Assembly (NCBI GenBank): GCA_018110855.1
Contig: JAGBFZ010000368.1
Coordinates: 1 to 17,022 of the forward strand
Direction of reading: 5' to 3'
DNA from: Oscillospiraceae bacterium
GTDB taxonomy: Bacteria > Bacillota > Clostridia > Oscillospirales > Ruminococcaceae
DNA length: 17,022 nt
The notes beneath the pieces are model-generated. The model searched no databases and was not told the origin of the DNA. It saw only the letters and a program-made list of their open reading frames with translations. Positions within the stretch are counted from its first letter, which is position 1. Each line of letters opens with the position of its first letter. A program made the position numbers and the translations under genes. Of the stretch, positions 290 through 8,766 are shown in pieces.

Positions 290-3200
290 GTGGAAATTTT
301 TAGGGATTACGGTCGTTTTAAGGCTTCCTGCAGCGAATTTACAGCAGCATTTACCGACAAATATTTTAATGCGGGACGGCTTTTCTGCCACCCTCTTCTT
401 GACGGAGTGATATACATTCCAATCTCAAAGGAGGAGGCAAAGAGCAACAGCACTGATATCTGCCGTATGTCGGATATGCTTCTTATGTCCGCTGACGGGG
501 AGAGCTTTGAGCCGTTTAAAATAGCCGAGGCAAGAAAAATTGCCGCCGAAAACGGCAAGGTCATCATTGCAAATCTTATTTTTGACGCAGCCTTTGAGGC
601 AGAGGACTGGATGATCGACGGCAAGCACGACACCCTTATCATCAGCGAGGAGCATATGAAAAAGGAAGGCAAGCCCTACGCTCCCGTAACTCCTCTCACC
701 AACGTGGTCCAGCCCTTTAAGAAGATCACCAATCATTTCCTTTATAAAAAATGCACTCTTGAGGATCCCGCAGTTCTTTCGGATAAGGACGTTTCAGAAA
801 AAACCGAAGGCTATCTGGACGAGCTGGTTTCCGAATTTGTTTCTCCCGAAATAATCGGCGAGACCGAGTTTGAGATATTCGGAACAAAGATATCCTGCGA
901 TAAAAACGAATCCCGCTGCAAGGAGCTTGATAAGGGTCTGGCACTGTGCGACAGGCTTATCAAGGATATGGAGCCTCATGCCGCAGCCTTCAAGGCAGCG
1001 GAGATCGACTTTGAGATCAAAGGCTATACAGCAAAGCTCTTTGCAAAGCTTGCTGCAAAGTGCGGCGTATCAATCGACGAAAAAGCATATGCTTCCGATG
1101 ATATCCCCGCTCTCAAGGATAATTTCAGAAAGCTTGTATCCGAAAAGAACGGTTGCGGCTTCAAATATTCTGCTCCCGACAAGGAAAAATTTGCCGAGGG
1201 CTTAAAGGCTGCCGAGATGTCCTCCGCAGCTCCCGAAGAGCTTAAAAAGGATATAGCTGCTCTTCTGAGAGTCCGTCCCGCATATCCCGCAGTTTTCAAT
1301 ATGGCAAGAGCTGCGTCTCCTGCCGACGCAGAGGCAGTGGAGAATATCTCCGAGTTCTGGAACAGCTCTGCCCTCACACCCGCAGAGCTTGGTGAATATC
1401 TTGAAAGCTCATATATTCCCGCAGACTGCCGTGACGCTGACGGCAAGCTTAACTGCGGCGGTGCAAGAGCAGCTCTTATTTCTGAGGATATAAAGACTGC
1501 TGCTGCAAAATACAAGATGAAAAACGTTCCCGTTTTCGATGAGCTGGATACATACTGCAAGGAATACGAAGTTGCAGCCCGTACCTATAACGGAACCGTG
1601 TTCGATACCGTTGCCGATATGGAAAAGGCTGTGAAGAACGAGGCTGAGCTTGCGGATAAGTGCGCAGACCTCTCAGCGCTTAACGAGGACGAGTTAAAGC
1701 AGCTCCGCAAGTATATCTACGATATGCCCCTTGACAAGAAAACCACAGGCAAGTATCTTCTGAAGATAAAGCTTGCGCTGAACAGCTGCGAGGAAAATCA
1801 GCTGAAGCTTCTCTGTACGGGTCTTACTCTGAAAAAGCCCGAGGAGCTTGAGGTTGTAATGAAGAAGATAACCGAGGGCGGCTATGACGAGGTAGTATCG
1901 GCTCCCTATATCGCAATGGTGAAGGACGCCGTTCTTACTGCTCAGCTCAAGGTGCTTTCGGAAATGTTCAAAACTATCCCCGACAGCGCAAAGGCAGACG
2001 AGCTTGAAAAGGCTCTTGCATCGGGCAAGTATGACAAAATGTTCACCCGTCATTTCACTGCAAAGATCGCAGAGGCAAGAGACGGCTTTGCAAGAGCAGA
2101 GCTTTCCGCACTCTGCAAGGGCATTGCCGCAGCAGATAACAAGACCCTTGACGAAATGCTTTCAAAGCTCGGTACAGTTAAATGCAGAGAAGGTCTCAAG
2201 GCTACTTATAAGAAGGAGATCGACGCAAGAAAGCAGGAGCTTCTTTCCAAGGAGGTCTCGGACGCATTTGCAGGCATTGCAGATGCCGACAAGGCAAAGC
2301 TCGACAGCCTGAGAGCAGTCATAGCGTCGGGCAAATATCCCGCAGCCCTCACCGACAAATACAAGGCTCAGCTTGATTCCCGTGAGACCGAGCTTAAAAA
2401 TGCCGAGTTTATCAAGAAGTGCGATACAATTCCTCAGATGAATAAGGCAGACCTTGACAAGATAATCGAAGAGCTGAAGAGCGAAAAATATCCCGAGGAT
2501 ATCACAAAGAAATATCTCCCCATGACCGAGGAGAGAGCAAAGGCGCTTCTCAAGGCAGAGCTTTCAGAAATGTGCAAGGATATCCCCACTATGGATCATG
2601 CAAAGCTCGATTCTCTTGAAAAGGCACTGGCTGACGAGAAATATCCCGAGGAGCTTACATCGGGCTATTTCGATACCATCAAGGCAAGAAGAAAGACCCT
2701 TTACAATAAGGAAGCCGATGACCTGTGCAAGAATATCGGCAATATGTTCAAGCCCGAGCTTGCAGCTCTTTCCGAGAAGCTTAAGAACGAGAAGTTCGAT
2801 CCCGAGTATGTGAAGAAGTATTTTGAGGAGATCGACAAGCGCTTCAATAAGATAGAGACCGATAAGCTTGACGCAATGTGCAAGGATATCGCAAAGCTTA
2901 AAAAGCCCGAGCTTGAGAAGCTTTCGGCAGATATTGCCGCACTTGGCTTCAAGAAGGAAAATACCGCTCCATATCTTGAGAAGATCAGAAGCTGTGAGAT
3001 CACGCTTATGAAGGCTGAGATGGAGAATCTCTGCAAGAATATCGGCACAACTCCCAGAAAGGAGCTTTCAAAGCTCAGGGAGGCGCTTTCGGGCGGAGAA
3101 TTCGACAAGGAACTTTCCGCAAAATACATCAAGCAGATCGACGAGCGCACCGAGACCCTTATCAAGCAGGAGCTTGCCGAGCTTTGCAAAAATATCCAGA

Positions 3201-5068
3201 GCGCGCCCAAGGATAAGCTTCTGAGCATGAAGCTGGCTCTTAACGATACACCTGAATATAAGGAGCCCGGCAAGGCATATGCCGAGCAGATCGAAAGCCG
3301 TCTCAAGCAGCTTGACAAGGCTGAATTTGACAAGCAGATGGCTTCTATTGAGAAGCTCACCGCCGAGGAGCTTGACAAATTTGCAGATGAGCTTGACAAG
3401 CGCAAGCCCGCTCTTGATCCCAAGCTTTACGAGGCGTCCGAAGCCAAGCTGAAGGAGCGCAGAGAGCTTCTCCAGAGACAGGAGCTTGAAAAGCTCTGCG
3501 GCGATATTGCGAGCCATGACCTTAAAAAGCTTGCCGAGATCAAGGAGAAGATATCCGACGGCGATTTCATTCCCGAGATCACCTTCCCCTTCATCAAGAG
3601 GATCGACGAAGCGGTTGCAAATCTCCATGTTCAGTATTATACAAAGCTCACCGAGAAGATCAATTCCATGAGCCGTGCAGAGCTTATCGTCCTTCTCGAG
3701 AAGATCAACAAAAACGAAAATCACGCTCCCGACGATATGCTCCAGAGGTATATCGGCAAGGTGAATTCCAAGATCCGCGAGGCGGATGCGAATATACTGT
3801 CCGAGAAATGCAAAAATCTCGGAAATGCGGGTGAACATAGCAGCTTCGAGCTTATCAAGGATATCAACGCAATGGATATCGACGCAGATACCAAGAAGCG
3901 CTTTATCACTCAGGTCGAGCTTCATATCACAAATATCAAGACAGTTGAGAGAGACGGCTTTGTGGAGCTGATGAAGAAGCTCATGTACGAAAACAGTGTT
4001 AAGGAATCTCAGTTCTATATCCCCGGTATTTCCAAATCCTTTGAGAGCGTTTATGTTAAGATCCAGAATACCTATGCGAGAACAGAGCAGTTTGAGCTCC
4101 CTGTGTTTGTGCATGAATTTACCATGGGGCACCCCGAGGAATCCTATTTGCTCACCACCGAATATCTTTACGGAATGGGCAAAACATCGGGTCTCCTGCA
4201 TATTCCCATTGATCAGATCGAAAGATTTGAAGGCAAGAGCGGCGTTTTCGGAGCATCTCTAAAGGTCATCGAAAAGAACGGAAAGACAACAGATCTTCAC
4301 TCCAACTTTGAAAAGAAGGCATTTGAGCCTACTGCAAAGGTGATGAATGGAGTTCTTGCAGCTATTCAGAAGTCTAAGGTTGATGCGAAGCTCAAGGAAG
4401 CGGAAGAGATCAAGGCTGCCGAAGAAGCAAAGCTGCTTGAACTTGAGCAGGAGCAGAAGGATATTGACGAGGCAAGAAAGAAGGCAGAGGCTGCCGAGAA
4501 GGAAGTCATTGCTCCCAAGCCCGAGGCTACTCCCGAGAAGAAGCCCGAAGCTGCTACCGAAAAGAAGCCCGAGGCTGTTCCCGAGAAGAAGCCCGAGCCT
4601 ATCAAGCCCATCAAGCCTATTGAAGTGGTTGTGTCCTCAATTCCCGAGGTCAAGCCCATCAAGCCTATTGATGGCGCACAGAGTAAGCCTGTTGAAGCAG
4701 CAAAGCCCGTACAGCCCGCTGCACCTGTTAAGCCTATTGAAGCGGCAAAGCCCGTACAGCCCGCTGCACCTGTTAAGCCTGTTGAAGCGGCAAAGCCCGT
4801 ACAGCCCGCTGCACCTGCTAAGCCCGTTGAAGCAGCGAAGCCCGTACAGCCCGCAGCTCCCGTTAAGCCTGCCGAGCCTGCAAAGCCCGTACAGCCCGCA
4901 GCTCCTGCTAAGCCCGCCGAGCCTGCAAAGCCTGTACAGCCTGCAGAGCAGAGCAAGCCTGTTGAAGCAGCAAAGCCCAAGATCAAGTTCTGCGACCAGT
5001 GCGGAGCAAAGATCACCAGCGAGACTGCAAAGTTCTGCGCAGAGTGCGGAAACAAGCTTGTACACTGA
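290..5068 (+). CDS. 1592-aa cytosolic repeat protein with possible PH-like domain, Pro-rich linker and C-terminal zinc ribbon; function unknown
   Basis: I do not recognise this protein. No signal peptide or membrane segment is visible, so it is probably cytosolic. Residues 1 to about 455 match no family I can name; they include a short ARTYNGTVFDT segment near 430. From Cys458 to about 1225 there are some 15 tandem repeats of 51 residues (two or three are 49-54), each beginning like C-K-(D/N)-I, followed by E-L-x-x-L and K-Y-x-x-x-I-x-x-R. They look all-helical. Residues about 1235-1360 resemble a bacterial PH-like domain of the YokE type, which is a weak call. A Glu/Lys/Ala coiled coil (about 1362-1406) follows, then a Lys/Pro linker that includes six 15-residue repeats (1468-1557). 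The end is a zinc ribbon with Cys1568, 1571, 1583 and 1586 (CX2C-X11-CX2C). The gene has its own strong promoter and terminator and so appears monocistronic. A scaffold or adaptor role is inference from architecture alone. The open frame and codon use leave little doubt that it is a real gene. Confidence 0.9.
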   Translation: MEIFRDYGRFKASCSEFTAAFTDKYFNAGRLFCHPLLDGVIYIPISKEEAKSNSTDICRMSDMLLMSADGESFEPFKIAEARKIAAENGKVIIANLIFDAAFEAEDWMIDGKHDTLIISEEHMKKEGKPYAPVTPLTNVVQPFKKITNHFLYKKCTLEDPAVLSDKDVSEKTEGYLDELVSEFVSPEIIGETEFEIFGTKISCDKNESRCKELDKGLALCDRLIKDMEPHAAAFKAAEIDFEIKGYTAKLFAKLAAKCGVSIDEKAYASDDIPALKDNFRKLVSEKNGCGFKYSAPDKEKFAEGLKAAEMSSAAPEELKKDIAALLRVRPAYPAVFNMARAASPADAEAVENISEFWNSSALTPAELGEYLESSYIPADCRDADGKLNCGGARAALISEDIKTAAAKYKMKNVPVFDELDTYCKEYEVAARTYNGTVFDTVADMEKAVKNEAELADKCADLSALNEDELKQLRKYIYDMPLDKKTTGKYLLKIKLALNSCEENQLKLLCTGLTLKKPEELEVVMKKITEGGYDEVVSAPYIAMVKDAVLTAQLKVLSEMFKTIPDSAKADELEKALASGKYDKMFTRHFTAKIAEARDGFARAELSALCKGIAAADNKTLDEMLSKLGTVKCREGLKATYKKEIDARKQELLSKEVSDAFAGIADADKAKLDSLRAVIASGKYPAALTDKYKAQLDSRETELKNAEFIKKCDTIPQMNKADLDKIIEELKSEKYPEDITKKYLPMTEERAKALLKAELSEMCKDIPTMDHAKLDSLEKALADEKYPEELTSGYFDTIKARRKTLYNKEADDLCKNIGNMFKPELAALSEKLKNEKFDPEYVKKYFEEIDKRFNKIETDKLDAMCKDIAKLKKPELEKLSADIAALGFKKENTAPYLEKIRSCEITLMKAEMENLCKNIGTTPRKELSKLREALSGGEFDKELSAKYIKQIDERTETLIKQELAELCKNIQSAPKDKLLSMKLALNDTPEYKEPGKAYAEQIESRLKQLDKAEFDKQMASIEKLTAEELDKFADELDKRKPALDPKLYEASEAKLKERRELLQRQELEKLCGDIASHDLKKLAEIKEKISDGDFIPEITFPFIKRIDEAVANLHVQYYTKLTEKINSMSRAELIVLLEKINKNENHAPDDMLQRYIGKVNSKIREADANILSEKCKNLGNAGEHSSFELIKDINAMDIDADTKKRFITQVELHITNIKTVERDGFVELMKKLMYENSVKESQFYIPGISKSFESVYVKIQNTYARTEQFELPVFVHEFTMGHPEESYLLTTEYLYGMGKTSGLLHIPIDQIERFEGKSGVFGASLKVIEKNGKTTDLHSNFEKKAFEPTAKVMNGVLAAIQKSKVDAKLKEAEEIKAAEEAKLLELEQEQKDIDEARKKAEAAEKEVIAPKPEATPEKKPEAATEKKPEAVPEKKPEPIKPIKPIEVVVSSIPEVKPIKPIDGAQSKPVEAAKPVQPAAPVKPIEAAKPVQPAAPVKPVEAAKPVQPAAPAKPVEAAKPVQPAAPVKPAEPAKPVQPAAPAKPAEPAKPVQPAEQSKPVEAAKPKIKFCDQCGAKITSETAKFCAECGNKLVH
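4691..4978 (+). repeat. Six 45-bp tandem repeats plus an 18-bp partial copy, inside the giant-protein gene
   Basis: Units begin at 4691, 4736, 4781, 4826, 4871 and 4916, and a partial seventh begins at 4961. Each encodes 15 residues of the type (V/I/A)-E-(A/P)-AKPVQPAAP-(V/A)-KP. The first copies are nearly identical and the later ones diverge. The array forms an extended, probably flexible tether between the coiled coil and the zinc ribbon. Because the period is a multiple of three, gain or loss of a copy would keep the frame. Confidence 0.9.
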
Positions 5069-5178: not shown

Positions 5179-5207
5179 TTGACAATTGTGTGCAAATGTT
5201 GTATTAT
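5179..5207 (+). promoter_or_regulatory. Promoter of the pfl locus
   Basis: TTGACA (5179-5184) and TATTAT (5202-5207) are 17 bp apart; TATAAT also occurs at 5205-5210 but with a 20-bp spacer. Transcription should start near 5213-5217. The start codon of pflB is at 5487, so the leader is about 270 nt, long enough for RNA-based control. Confidence 0.8.
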
Positions 5208-5229: not shown

Positions 5230-5268
5230 GCAGAATCGGCTGTCCATCGGCATAAATTCTGCTTTTTT
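5230..5268 (+). terminator. Terminator-like hairpin early in the pfl leader (possible attenuator or short RNA end)
   Basis: GCAGAAT (5230-5236) pairs with ATTCTGC (5256-5262). An inner stem GCTG (5239-5242) with CGGC (5248-5251) closes a 5-nt loop. Six T residues follow at 5263-5268. It lies only about 15 nt after the predicted transcription start and about 220 nt before pflB. If it terminates, it would either release a short RNA of about 50 nt or control read-through into the pfl genes. I see no clear alternative antiterminator pairing. Confidence 0.5.
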
Positions 5269-5304
5269 ATGGTGTTGAAATAATACCGTGTGAGTATAGT
5301 TTAT

Positions 5305-5395: not shown

Positions 5396-5467
5396 AGCTT
5401 TGTGCAGTCCCATAAGGACGGCACGGAAGATAGCTTCGCACAACCTCATAAGGGCGGTGCGAAAGAT
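5396..5467 (+). ncRNA. Two head-to-tail 36-nt hairpin units with compensatory changes, in the pfl 5' leader
   Basis: Unit 1 (5396-5431) and unit 2 (5432-5467) are 26/36 identical, and all ten differences are transitions at paired positions. Each folds the same way: a 7-bp lower stem (5399-5405 with 5421-5427; 5435-5441 with 5457-5463), an A-G mismatch, an upper stem of up to 4 bp, and a CAUAA loop. Three pairs change on both sides and stay paired: U-A to C-G (5403/5423), G-C to A-U (5404/5422) and U-A to C-G (5408/5418). Three other changes swap between a G-U and a Watson-Crick pair, and one breaks a pair (A5443 with C5455). The loop, the mismatch and the AGC/AGAT linkers are unchanged. The second unit ends 3 nt before the pflB AGGAGG. 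A cis-acting translation or stability element is likely. The RNA family is not one I recognise; it is not the ZTP (pfl) riboswitch consensus. A dispersed genomic repeat is the main alternative. Confidence 0.7.
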
Positions 5468-5486
5468 TGAAGGAGGAAAATAAACT

Positions 5487-7577
5487 ATGAATCAGATGCC
5501 ACAGGAATGGGAAGGCTTCAAGGGCGGTCAGTGGACAAAGGAGATCAATGTCCGTGACTTTATCCAGAAGAACTATACTCCCTATGACGGCGACGAAAGC
5601 TTCCTTGCAGATCCCACAGACGCTACCAAGAAGCTCTGGGACGACGTAATGGAGCTTGCTAAGAAGGAAAGAGAAGCAGGCGGCGTTCTCGATATGGATA
5701 CAAAGGTAGTATCCTCTCTCGTATCTCACGGCGCAGGCTATATTGAAAAGGATCTGGAGCAGATCGTTGGTCTCCAGACAGACAAGCCCTTCAAGAGAGC
5801 ACTCATGCCCTACGGCGGCCTCAGAATGGCTGAAAAGGCTTGCTCCGACAACGGCTACAAGGTTGACCCTGAGATCAGCCACATCTTCACAGAATACCGC
5901 AAGACTCATAACGCAGGCGTATTCGATGTATACACTCCCGAAATGAGAGCAGCAAGAACCGCTCATATCCTCACAGGTCTCCCCGATGCATACGGCAGAG
6001 GAAGAATCATCGGCGACTACAGACGTGTTGCTCTGTACGGCGTTGACAGACTTATCGAGGACAAGAAGGAGCAGAAGGCTTTCTACACCTGCCCCATGAC
6101 CGAGGAAAAGATCCGCGCAAGAGAGGAGATCGCTGAGCAGATCCGTGCTCTCGAGAACCTCAAGAAGATGGCAGAGATCTACGGCTGCGATATTTCCAAG
6201 CCCGCAGTAACCGCTAAGGAAGCAGTTCAGGCTGTATACTTCGGCTATCTGGGCGCTGTAAAGGATCAGAACGGCGCAGCAATGTCCCTCGGACGTACAT
6301 CCACATTCCTCGATATCTACTTCGAGAGAGACTTCAAGCTGGGCAGAATCACCGAAGTTGAAGCTCAGGAGCTTATCGACCATTTCATCATGAAGCTCCG
6401 TCTCGTTAGATTTGCAAGAACTCCCGAGTATAACGCCCTCTTCTCCGGCGACCCCCAGTGGGTAACAGAGTCCCTCGGCGGTATGGGAATCGACGGCAGA
6501 CATATGGTTACAAAGACCTCCTTCCGTTATCTCCACACTCTCGAGAATCTGGGCACATCTCCCGAGCCTAACATGACTGTTCTCTGGTCCACAAGACTTC
6601 CCGCTGCATGGAAGGCATACTGCGCAAAGATCTCTATCAATACATCTTCCATCCAGTACGAGAACGATGACCTTATGAGAGTAACCCACGGAGATGATTA
6701 CGCAATCGCTTGCTGCGTATCCTCCATGAGAGTCGGCAAGGAAATGCAGTTCTTCGGCGCAAGAGCAAACCTCGCTAAGTGCCTTCTCTACGCTATCAAC
6801 GGCGGTGTTGACGAGATCAGCGGCGTACAGGTAGCAACAAAGTTCAGACCCATCACCTCCGAGTATCTTGATTTCGATGAGGTAATGGAGAAGTACGATG
6901 ACATGATGACATGGCTCGCAGAGCTTTATGTAAACACCCTCAACATCATTCACTATATGCACGATAAGTACTGCTACGAAAGCCTCCAGATGGCTCTCCA
7001 CGACAGAGAGGTAAAGAGATACTTCGCAACAGGTATCGCAGGCATCTCCGTTGTAGCAGACTCCCTCTCCGCTATCAAGTATGCTAAGGTCAAGACCATC
7101 AGAAACGAGCAGGGTATCGTAGTAGATTACGAGATCGAGGGTGACTTCCCCAAGTACGGCAACGATGATGACCGTGTTGACGAGATCGCTGAGGATATCC
7201 TCAACCGCTTCATGAACAAGATCCGTCAGCAGCATACATACAGAAACGGTCTGCCTACAACTTCTATCCTTACAATTACTTCCAACGTTGTATACGGAAA
7301 GAAGACAGGCTCCACACCCGATGGACGTAAGCTCGGCGTGCCTCTCGCACCCGGTGCTAACCCCATGCACGGCAGAGATACTCATGGTGCTTCCGCATCC
7401 CTTTCTTCTGTATCCAAGCTCCAGTTCTCCAATGCACAGGATGGTATTTCCAATACCTTCTCCATCATTCCCGATGCACTCGGTAAGGACGGCGGCGTAT
7501 TTGTAGGCGATCTCGATATCGACGCACTTTGCCCCACTTGCGCTAATATCCCCAACACCAGCGACAATGACAGATAA
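5487..7577 (+). CDS. pflB: Pyruvate formate-lyase core subunit, lacking the glycyl radical domain
   Basis: It converts pyruvate and CoA to acetyl-CoA and formate by radical chemistry in the cytosol. The N-terminus ([27 protein letters not shown]) and the whole barrel match PFL, and the adjacent catalytic cysteines are Cys409-Cys410 in [16 protein letters not shown] at 5470-5476, 10 nt before the ATG, fixes the start. At 696 residues it is about 50-60 shorter than normal PFL (about 740-760). Homology runs through [13 protein letters not shown] and then stops before the region that should carry the RVSGY glycyl radical loop. In its place is a tail of about 25 residues containing CPTC (Cys682, Cys685), which is not part of ordinary PFL. 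The missing domain is supplied by the small gene at 7744. Both halves carry extra sequence at the break, so this is not a simple frameshift. It should be inactive unless the small protein docks. Confidence 0.93.
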
Positions 7578-7616: not shown

Positions 7617-7651
7617 GCCGATAGTCTTTACAATATGTTAAGACTATCGGC
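7617..7651 (+). other. 12-bp perfect hairpin between the PFL core and the glycyl radical gene
   Basis: GCCGATAGTCTT (7617-7628) pairs perfectly with AAGACTATCGGC (7640-7651) around an 11-nt loop. On the plus strand an A-tract, not a U-tract, follows, so it is not a normal intrinsic terminator in the direction of the operon. It may protect the 3' end of the core mRNA, mark a processing site, or alter the ratio of the two PFL parts. On the minus strand a weak T-run follows it. Confidence 0.6.
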
Positions 7652-7680: not shown

Positions 7681-7743
7681 TAGCGTATAGAAAGTACACC
7701 AACCAAGTATAATTTTAACGATAATTTGAAAGGAGTTTTTACT

Positions 7744-7986
7744 ATGGCAGCAAATGCACAGCAGATAAACAACCTCGTAGGCCTTCTTGACGGTTATGCA
7801 ACCAAGGGCGGCCACCACCTCAATGTTAACGTGTTCACAAGAGATACCCTTCTCGATGCACAGAAGCACCCCGAGAACTATCCTCAGCTCACTATCCGTG
7901 TATCCGGATACGCAGTAAACTTCATCAAGCTCACCAAGGAGCAGCAGGACGACGTTATCGCAAGAACATTCCACGCTTCCCTGTAA
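7744..7986 (+). CDS. Stand-alone glycyl radical domain of pyruvate formate-lyase (GrcA/YfiD-like)
   Basis: This 80-residue protein matches the C-terminal domain of PFL from end to end: [19 protein letters not shown], a [15 protein letters not shown] segment with the radical glycine at Gly55, and [22 protein letters not shown] at 7729-7735 sits 8 nt before this ATG. An upstream in-frame TTG at 7726 would overlap that site, so I reject it. In E. coli, GrcA is a spare part that replaces the oxygen-cleaved domain of an intact PFL. Here the neighbouring core has no such domain, so this protein must be an obligate second subunit if the enzyme works. pflA begins 12 nt downstream, which fits joint expression with the activase that would put the radical on Gly55. 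The name grcA is possible but would suggest the repair role only. Confidence 0.93.
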
Positions 7987-7998
7987 TCAACCGAGCTT

Positions 7999-8766
7999 AT
8001 GAACGGCTTCATTCATTCAACTGAATCGTTCGGAACAGTCGACGGACCCGGTATCAGGTTCGTCGTCTTTTTCCAAGGGTGCCCTATGAGGTGCCTCTAT
8101 TGCCACAATCCCGATACATGGGAGTTTCACACCGAAAAAAACGACGTGGGCAAGGCAGTCACCGCCGAGGAGATACTTGATATGTATGATGGTGTCAAGG
8201 AGTTTCTCAAAGGCGGAGGAATTACCTGCACAGGCGGAGAGCCGATGGCTCAGCTCCCTTTCCTTACCGAGCTTTTTGAAAAAGCGAAGGAGCGGGGGAT
8301 ACACACCTGCCTCGATACCTCGGGAATCACCTTCAACCCCGAAAATACCGCAGCCGTGGACAGACTCATGGACGTTACCGACGTAATAATGCTTGATATC
8401 AAGCATATTGACGACGAGGAGCATAAAAAGCTCACAGGACAGAGCAACAAAAATATCCTTGCCTTTGCAAAATACGCCAGCGCAAAGAAAAAGGAGCTCT
8501 GGATACGTCATGTTGTCGTTCCGGGAATAACTCAGAATGATAAATATCTTCATGAGCTGGGCGTGTTCATTTCGGGACTGAAATCTGTCAAGGCGCTTGA
8601 TGTGCTTCCCTACCACGATATGGGCAAGGTGAAGTATAAAAATCTCGGCATAGACTACGCACTTGCAGATGTCGAACCTCTGCCCAAGGAGGAAGCAGTC
8701 AAGGCAAGAGATGTCATCATGCAGGGAATCAAGGACGGTCTTATGGCTGAACGAAACAGCAAATAA
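7999..8766 (+). CDS. pflA: Pyruvate formate-lyase activating enzyme (radical SAM)
   Basis: This 255-residue enzyme abstracts a hydrogen from the PFL glycine using S-adenosylmethionine and a [4Fe-4S] cluster. The N-terminus IHSTESFGTVDGPGIRFVVFFQGC is classic PflA. The cluster ligands are Cys28, Cys32 and Cys35 (CX3CX2C in CPMRCLYCHNP), and TCTGGEP is the SAM-contacting motif. Length is as expected (about 245-260). The gene lies 12 nt after the glycyl radical gene and its ribosome binding site is weak, so translational coupling is likely. Its substrate here would be the small separate subunit, either alone or docked in the core. Confidence 0.96.
   Translation: MNGFIHSTESFGTVDGPGIRFVVFFQGCPMRCLYCHNPDTWEFHTEKNDVGKAVTAEEILDMYDGVKEFLKGGGITCTGGEPMAQLPFLTELFEKAKERGIHTCLDTSGITFNPENTAAVDRLMDVTDVIMLDIKHIDDEEHKKLTGQSNKNILAFAKYASAKKKELWIRHVVVPGITQNDKYLHELGVFISGLKSVKALDVLPYHDMGKVKYKNLGIDYALADVEPLPKEEAVKARDVIMQGIKDGLMAERNSK

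Follow-up and report, generated by a model that had tools for sequence, protein, structure and literature searches.

The leader of pflB, the gene for the large part of a split pyruvate formate-lyase (PFL), carries two predicted head-to-tail 36-nt RNA hairpins just before the ribosome binding site. These units were analyzed in a 17,022-nucleotide stretch of DNA from an Oscillospiraceae bacterium (the window) and in related genomes. Stem covariation, constrained spacing of the loops and of the Shine-Dalgarno (SD) sequence, loop identity within leaders and a single pflB site in each searched genome were observed by sequence comparison and computation. We propose that the twin hairpins, with their genus-wide geometry and mostly matching loops, form a two-site translational operator that is read through its loops by a probably dimeric RNA-binding factor, a reading to which we assign a probability of slightly below one half.

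Twin hairpins in the leader of a split pyruvate formate-lyase gene

The two units of the window differ at 10 of 36 positions, every one of them in a paired base, and the probability that all ten changes fall within the 22 paired positions by chance is 0.0025. An earlier note, made from the sequence alone, had described these differences exactly to the base, and its tally of the affected pairs was reproduced pair by pair: three pairs (unit positions 8-28, 9-27 and 13-23) are changed on both sides with pairing kept, three (5-31, 6-30 and 15-21) alternate between wobble and Watson-Crick pairing, and one (12-24) is lost by a change from G-C to A-C. Both units have the same CAUAA loop, A-G mismatch and outer linkers. 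In folding of the twins a z-score of -3.43 was obtained, with 1 of 200 shuffles equally good. The SD lies just 3' of unit 2 (Table 1), which agrees with the placement given in the earlier note. In whole-leader ensembles the SD is only partly open (mean unpaired 0.20-0.90), so that structure alone might matter.

In many anaerobic fermenters PFL catalyzes a principal step of carbon and energy metabolism. In the window the glycyl-radical domain is missing from the large open reading frame (ORF) and comes from a separate GrcA3-like gene of 80 aa that has an SD of its own; the operon order is pflB, the small glycyl-radical gene and pflA in a genome of 2.6 Mb. The same split was found in every genus locus that extends sufficiently far (15/15, L014-L028). 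Among 77 outgroup loci, which were fetched using the domain-less PFL protein as query, 75 large ORFs were without the RxSGY motif, and 34 of those 75 are followed downstream by a small RxSGY ORF. GrcA3 is an already named NCBIfam family.

Upstream of the twins, a sigma-70-type promoter is predicted to start a leader of approximately 270 nt. The terminator-like hairpin with its U-run lies shortly 3' of this predicted promoter, and attenuation of that promoter is possible; the hairpin was absent from a terminator scan with a loop limit of 8 and from the RNAalifold consensus. Elements of the form ACCN6GTATARTTT are located upstream of both PFL subunit genes, and like ones were seen by eye in relatives. 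The ACCN6GTATAGTTT pattern has four sites in the genome, two of them in the pfl operon; a reversed-pattern control also gave four, and enrichment is thus unsupported. Two further pairings were considered and dropped, namely that of the CAUAA loop with UUAUG of the A+U-rich upstream hairpin, since one leader (L019) retains CAUAA without that hairpin, and pairing of CCUC in unit 2 with the SD, which was seen by eye in clade A only. In the gap that follows pflB, ahead of the small subunit gene, lies an inverted repeat (7617-7651), also seen in clade A relatives; it was rejected as a terminator because the + strand has A after the repeat and no U-run. The region 290-5068 encodes a repeat-rich protein of 1592 aa whose tail is rich in K, P and V/A; its C-terminal zinc ribbon scored under the Pfam cut-off, and no NCBIfam family matched.

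Table 1. Features of the pflB leader and the pfl operon, in positions of the window. R1 is the covariance model built from the hairpin units.
Feature	Position	Strand	Evidence and remarks
Sigma-70-type promoter, TTGACA, 17 nt, TATTAT (predicted)	5179..5207	+	11/12 consensus matches, best of 3 sites; chance expectation for the region, 1.5 such sites
Terminator-like hairpin GCAGAAU...AUUCUGC, then UUUUUU (tentative)	5230..5268	+	Early in leader; read by eye
Conserved ACCN6GTATAGTTT element	5285..5302	+	Similar element before small subunit gene at 7698-7715
A+U-rich hairpin UUAUGUGC-AUUAUU-GUACAUAA	5352..5373	+	Upstream of twins; in 5/6 clade A leaders; few substitutions, weak support
Hairpin unit 1	5396..5431	+	Stem 5399-5427, loop CAUAA 5411-5415; R1 match 49.4 bits (R1 seed includes unit 1)
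Hairpin unit 2	5432..5467	+	Stem 5435-5463, loop CAUAA 5447-5451; R1 match 49.1 bits (R1 seed includes unit 2)
Shine-Dalgarno AGGAGG	5471..5476	+	3-8 nt separate it from the end of predicted hairpin 2 in 17/17 leaders
pflB, PFL large part without glycyl-radical end	5487..7577	+	TIGR01255 1113.8 bits, profile 1-667 of 744; Gly_radical only 2-50 of 106
Separate glycyl-radical domain gene, GrcA3-like, RVSGYAV	7744..7986	+	NF038360 GrcA3 163.2 bits, cut-off 158
pflA-like radical-SAM activating enzyme	7999..8766	+	Radical_SAM and Fer4_12 domains

Conservation and covariation within one genus

Twenty genomes of the genus, mostly fragmented drafts and many of them incomplete, were compared; 19 had a pfl match and an orthologous leader was obtained from 17. 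In all 17 leaders two hairpins were predicted before the SD, in the stretch from -95 to -8, so that conservation upstream of pfl in relatives, which the earlier note had put forward as a test, is present in the genus. Each hairpin comprises 9-17 predicted pairs, except for five in the first hairpin of L023. The mean z-score of the genus leaders was -3.15 (n=17), with 15 of 17 below -2 and the remaining two at -1.96 and -1.20, compared with -0.55 in outgroup pfl leaders (n=76; 10 below -2). Two hairpins of at least nine pairs were found in 5 of the 76 outgroup leaders, none of which carried one and the same loop twice. The distribution of the element is limited to a single genus.

A covariance model (R1; rough E-values) was built from 15 units of 10 genomes, and its matches in its own seed leaders are circular. 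Two held-out leaders scored low (L023, 16.9 bits; L029, 13.9 bits), the leaders of L020, L021, L026 and L030 were not found by R1, and the first units of L022, L024, L025, L027, L028 and of the seed member L019 were missed; the membership of these units therefore rests on folding and position and not on the model. The 77 outgroup pfl loci gave no R1 match with an E of 1 or less. A search of 247 family genomes gave two genus members and two weak, unrelated-looking hits, under stricter filters that missed two (G010, G017) of the four genus members shown, so that divergent relatives may escape. The search of related genomes advised in the earlier note thus matched the genus pfl leaders in part, but none of the outgroup loci.

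For the covariation analysis, 15 distinct units from 10 genomes were compared over 12 pairs in a MAFFT alignment that was not structure-fitted. Over these units 89.3% of cells were paired, versus 72.7% in shuffled alignments. Cells that were changed on both sides and still paired numbered 34, against 10.5 in shuffles (reached in 0/500), and the covariation score was 0.594, against 0.269 in shuffles (0/500) and at most 0.228 when slid; these two comparisons support the claim of the earlier note that the RNA structure of the units is under selection. Further pair types were also more numerous (23 vs. 17.2 in shuffles, 2/500). Seven pairs showed a double change, a number that shuffles also reached (150/500), and this count alone is uninformative. 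When the six clade A leaders were taken alone, hairpin 2 was nearly invariant and the covariation term was close to zero; the evidence thus rests on the comparison of unit with unit and between lineages. The position of the A-G mismatch (alignment columns 12-26) was occupied among the 15 units by AU in three, GC in two, and CG, GU, UA and UG in one each, was unpaired in five and had a gap in one, and the mismatch is not conserved across the units of the genus. The constancy of mismatch, CAUAA loop and linkers described in the earlier note holds between the units of the window; in relatives the mismatch is often a standard pair and the loop differs in most leaders (see below).

Scattered copies, for which the earlier note had advised a count in this genome and which would have spoken against its reading, were not found. 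In the window's own genome low-E hits of R1 were confined to the two units, the next hit being at E 0.73 (150 of 1137 first-look candidates scored). The 11-mer core pattern occurs at 13 places of this genome, versus 9 for a reversed control; two of them are the twins, and at the other 11 no second hairpin was found, L011 being drawn with a single short hairpin. A REP-like dispersed repeat was rejected, given just two adjacent copies and core 11-mers elsewhere without a twin. Over the 20 genomes the CAUAA twin pattern was present at 16 places, six of them at pfl (6/6 clade A genomes), with 10 others versus 12 in the reversed control. The UUUACAAA twin pattern was present at 19 places, three of them at pfl (G002, G003, G010), with 16 others versus 5 in the reversed control, an excess that remains without explanation. 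When all twin-pattern places were folded, two hairpins with the pattern's loop were obtained only at the nine pfl places. As far as these searches reach, the element is a cis element of one gene, with one site per searched genome, and not a repeat family.

Away from pfl, three genomes (L167 in G001, L171 in G007 and L176 in G013) share an almost identical stretch of 38 nt that contains two TTTACAAA copies. The weak R1 hits outside pfl all (11/11) lie in an open frame of at least 109 aa, a location that is weak evidence of coding, as the clade A pfl twins also lie within an antisense open frame; two of these hits (L137, L141) resemble palindromes.

Loop identity, spacing and a possible passive role

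CAUAA loops are present on both hairpins in 6 of 17 leaders (L014-L019; the second loop of L015 is drawn as CAUA), and the loops are constant in all 12 clade A units. AAAUC is found on both hairpins in L020 and L021, in which a third AAAUC hairpin was seen further upstream of the twins, and UACAA twice in L026, L029 and L030, where the fold draws ACA closed by U-A. L022 has CACAA in hairpin 2 and a 6-nt CACAAA in the local fold of hairpin 1, a loop that is missing from the minimum-energy fold of a longer stretch; the loops of L015 and L022 vary with the fold chosen. In L024, L025, L027 and L028 a 7-nt CUACAAU loop comes first and is followed by CACAA or CACGA, and L023 is without a matching first hairpin loop. 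Altogether, a 5-mer common to both hairpins was found in 12 of 17 leaders (11 without L022), namely CAUAA in six, UACAA in three, AAAUC in two and CACAA in one.

Among the lineages in which both loops could be placed, 5 of 7 match (permutation P 0.0095; 4 of 6 and P 0.033 without L022), in a test that is small and in which the lineages are not fully independent. The pflB tree unites, each by itself, the leaders with CAUAA (support 93/95), the two with AAAUC (100/100) and the group of L024-L029 (100/100), and leaves the deeper order unresolved. Shared loops could partly stem from tandem duplication in each lineage, which would speak against an operator. In clade A, first units are 75-89% and second units 83-97% identical across species, and the two units of the same genome are 67-72% identical (each in 4/6 genomes). 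As identity is higher between species than within a genome, the clade A duplication predates the species, and the loops were held while the stems diverged. The geometry is similarly constrained, with a loop-to-loop distance of 30-38 nt (mean 34.6, 16 leaders), 20-25 nt from loop 2 to the SD and 3-8 nt from the end of hairpin 2 to the SD (17 leaders).

These data bear on the strongest alternative, namely that the hairpins are passive structures which need no specific binder and only protect the mRNA against nucleases or hold the SD region accessible. Their location just 5' of the SD in all 17 leaders and the free drift of the stem sequence would be expected of such structures. However, a passive stem needs neither invariant loops in 12 clade A units, nor loop matches in 12 of 17 leaders, nor a tight loop spacing; a passive stabilizer accounts for the stems but not for the loops, and we consider this explanation rather unlikely. 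Loops, spacing and SD distance that are kept while the stems drift fit the two-site operator read through its loops.

Known RNA systems and the proposed operator

In an Rfam cmscan of the window (E up to 5) five hits were obtained, all of them below the gathering score and none over the hairpins. The closest likeness is to the dual hairpins targeted by ANTAR proteins (EutV, NasR, AmiR), which are also two short tandem leader hairpins with like loops and constrained spacing. In the available parts of two sources, ANTAR targets have six-base loops with A at position 1 and G at position 4 (PMC3369931, PMC8934654). It is conceivable that the single ANTAR protein of the genus recognizes the twins through a changed preference for loop bases. 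Exactly one ANTAR protein is encoded in 20/20 genus genomes, in three of them (G012, G017, G018) with the ANTAR domain 2.1-2.8 kb downstream of pflB; a tandem pair of hairpins separated by a short linker is predicted in 17/17 leaders (spacing as above in 16); and the available part of the 2012 paper contains a putative ANTAR target that overlaps a ribosome-binding site (PMC3369931). However, loops in the pflB leaders are mostly of five bases, and hexaloops with A1 and G4 on both hairpins occur in 0/17. Hairpin 2 overlaps neither a terminator nor the ribosome binding site, as in the window no U-run follows it and the SD lies 3-8 nt beyond. ANTAR proteins are also unspecific to the genus (43 of 61 genomes in a family sample), whereas the R1 hairpin was found only in genus members apart from the two weak hits. 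Further, the three adjacent cases may represent one rearrangement, and in 16/20 genomes the ANTAR gene and pfl are on different contigs. The ANTAR likeness proposed in the earlier note stands for the twin layout but fails for loop size and loop bases, although each genus genome encodes one ANTAR protein, and binding by this protein appears improbable. In the fetched stretches of the ANTAR loci (L143-L162, 20 genus genomes) an ORF which we take, from its start MKFTKMQGIGNDY, to be dapF-like was present in 11 of 20.

Guanidine-II (mini-ykkC) riboswitches likewise consist of two tandem leader hairpins with like loops. Their loops are ACGR, and such loops were absent from both hairpins in the predicted folds of the genus leaders. 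According to the available part of PMC9300104, the P1 and P2 loops kiss. A metabolite riboswitch of this kind, with two hairpins close to the SD that touch through their loops, would share the layout, and the CAUAA, AAAUC and UACAA pairs could make two loop-loop base pairs. In contrast, CACAA with CACAA can make none, mixed-loop leaders can make only one, the loops differ between lineages, unlike a ligand pocket, and an Rfam match is absent; this explanation is even less probable than binding by the ANTAR protein. The pfl RNA motif (ZTP riboswitch) is a different, pseudoknotted aptamer whose likeness lies mostly in the name, and its Rfam model was unmatched in the window. That motif is tied to purine and formyl-folate genes in the accessible text of PMC2864571. 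Phage boxB and coat-protein operator hairpins are similar in that a small hairpin presents a loop read by a protein, but they are viral, single hairpins. The loops of boxB are pentaloops with A at positions 2 and 5.

A small RNA might pair with the loops, since they and their flanks lie exposed in the predicted folds and are conserved inside each clade; this explanation is slightly less probable again, as the 5-nt loops vary among lineages. A short coding tandem, a 12-codon repeat ending at TGA before the SD, can practically be dismissed: an open frame spans both units in the window, but it is broken in relatives (L015 has one additional nucleotide, and L016 and L018 one fewer, in the units), the unit differences lie in RNA pairs and no SD was seen before the frame.

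In the two-site operator that we favor, a trans-acting factor, probably a dimeric protein, would bind the twin loops. When bound to hairpin 2, 3-8 nt before the SD, it would crowd the landing 30S subunit and thereby alter ribosome access, and the effect would presumably be to repress, not to activate. By adjusting how much of the large PFL subunit is made, such a switch would determine the ratio of this subunit to the glycyl-radical subunit, which has a gene of its own.

The literature searches brought up no RNA leader that controls pflB, and the titles and abstract openings of the best literature matches contained no description of this twin-hairpin leader. A candidate RNA in the available part of PMC8040213 overlaps pflA, a different place. 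The layout of two alike hairpins in a leader is of a known kind, and within the searches made the loop code and the target are new. More tentatively, the twins may represent an undescribed class of operator that governs the large subunit of split PFL, with loops that co-change across lineages and so preserve a record of evolution in step with an RNA-binding regulator dedicated to them, such as the lone ANTAR protein, if that reads a new loop code, or a PFL subunit that regulates itself; we regard this as possible but not probable.

Loops that are alike within a leader and differ between species constitute a natural experiment, in which loop and reader should co-change. If the binders of its approximately seven lineages were compared, this one genus might yield an RNA-binding specificity not seen before. 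The split enzyme and the proposed twin operator jointly raise the question of how cells balance the large and the radical-carrying PFL subunit.
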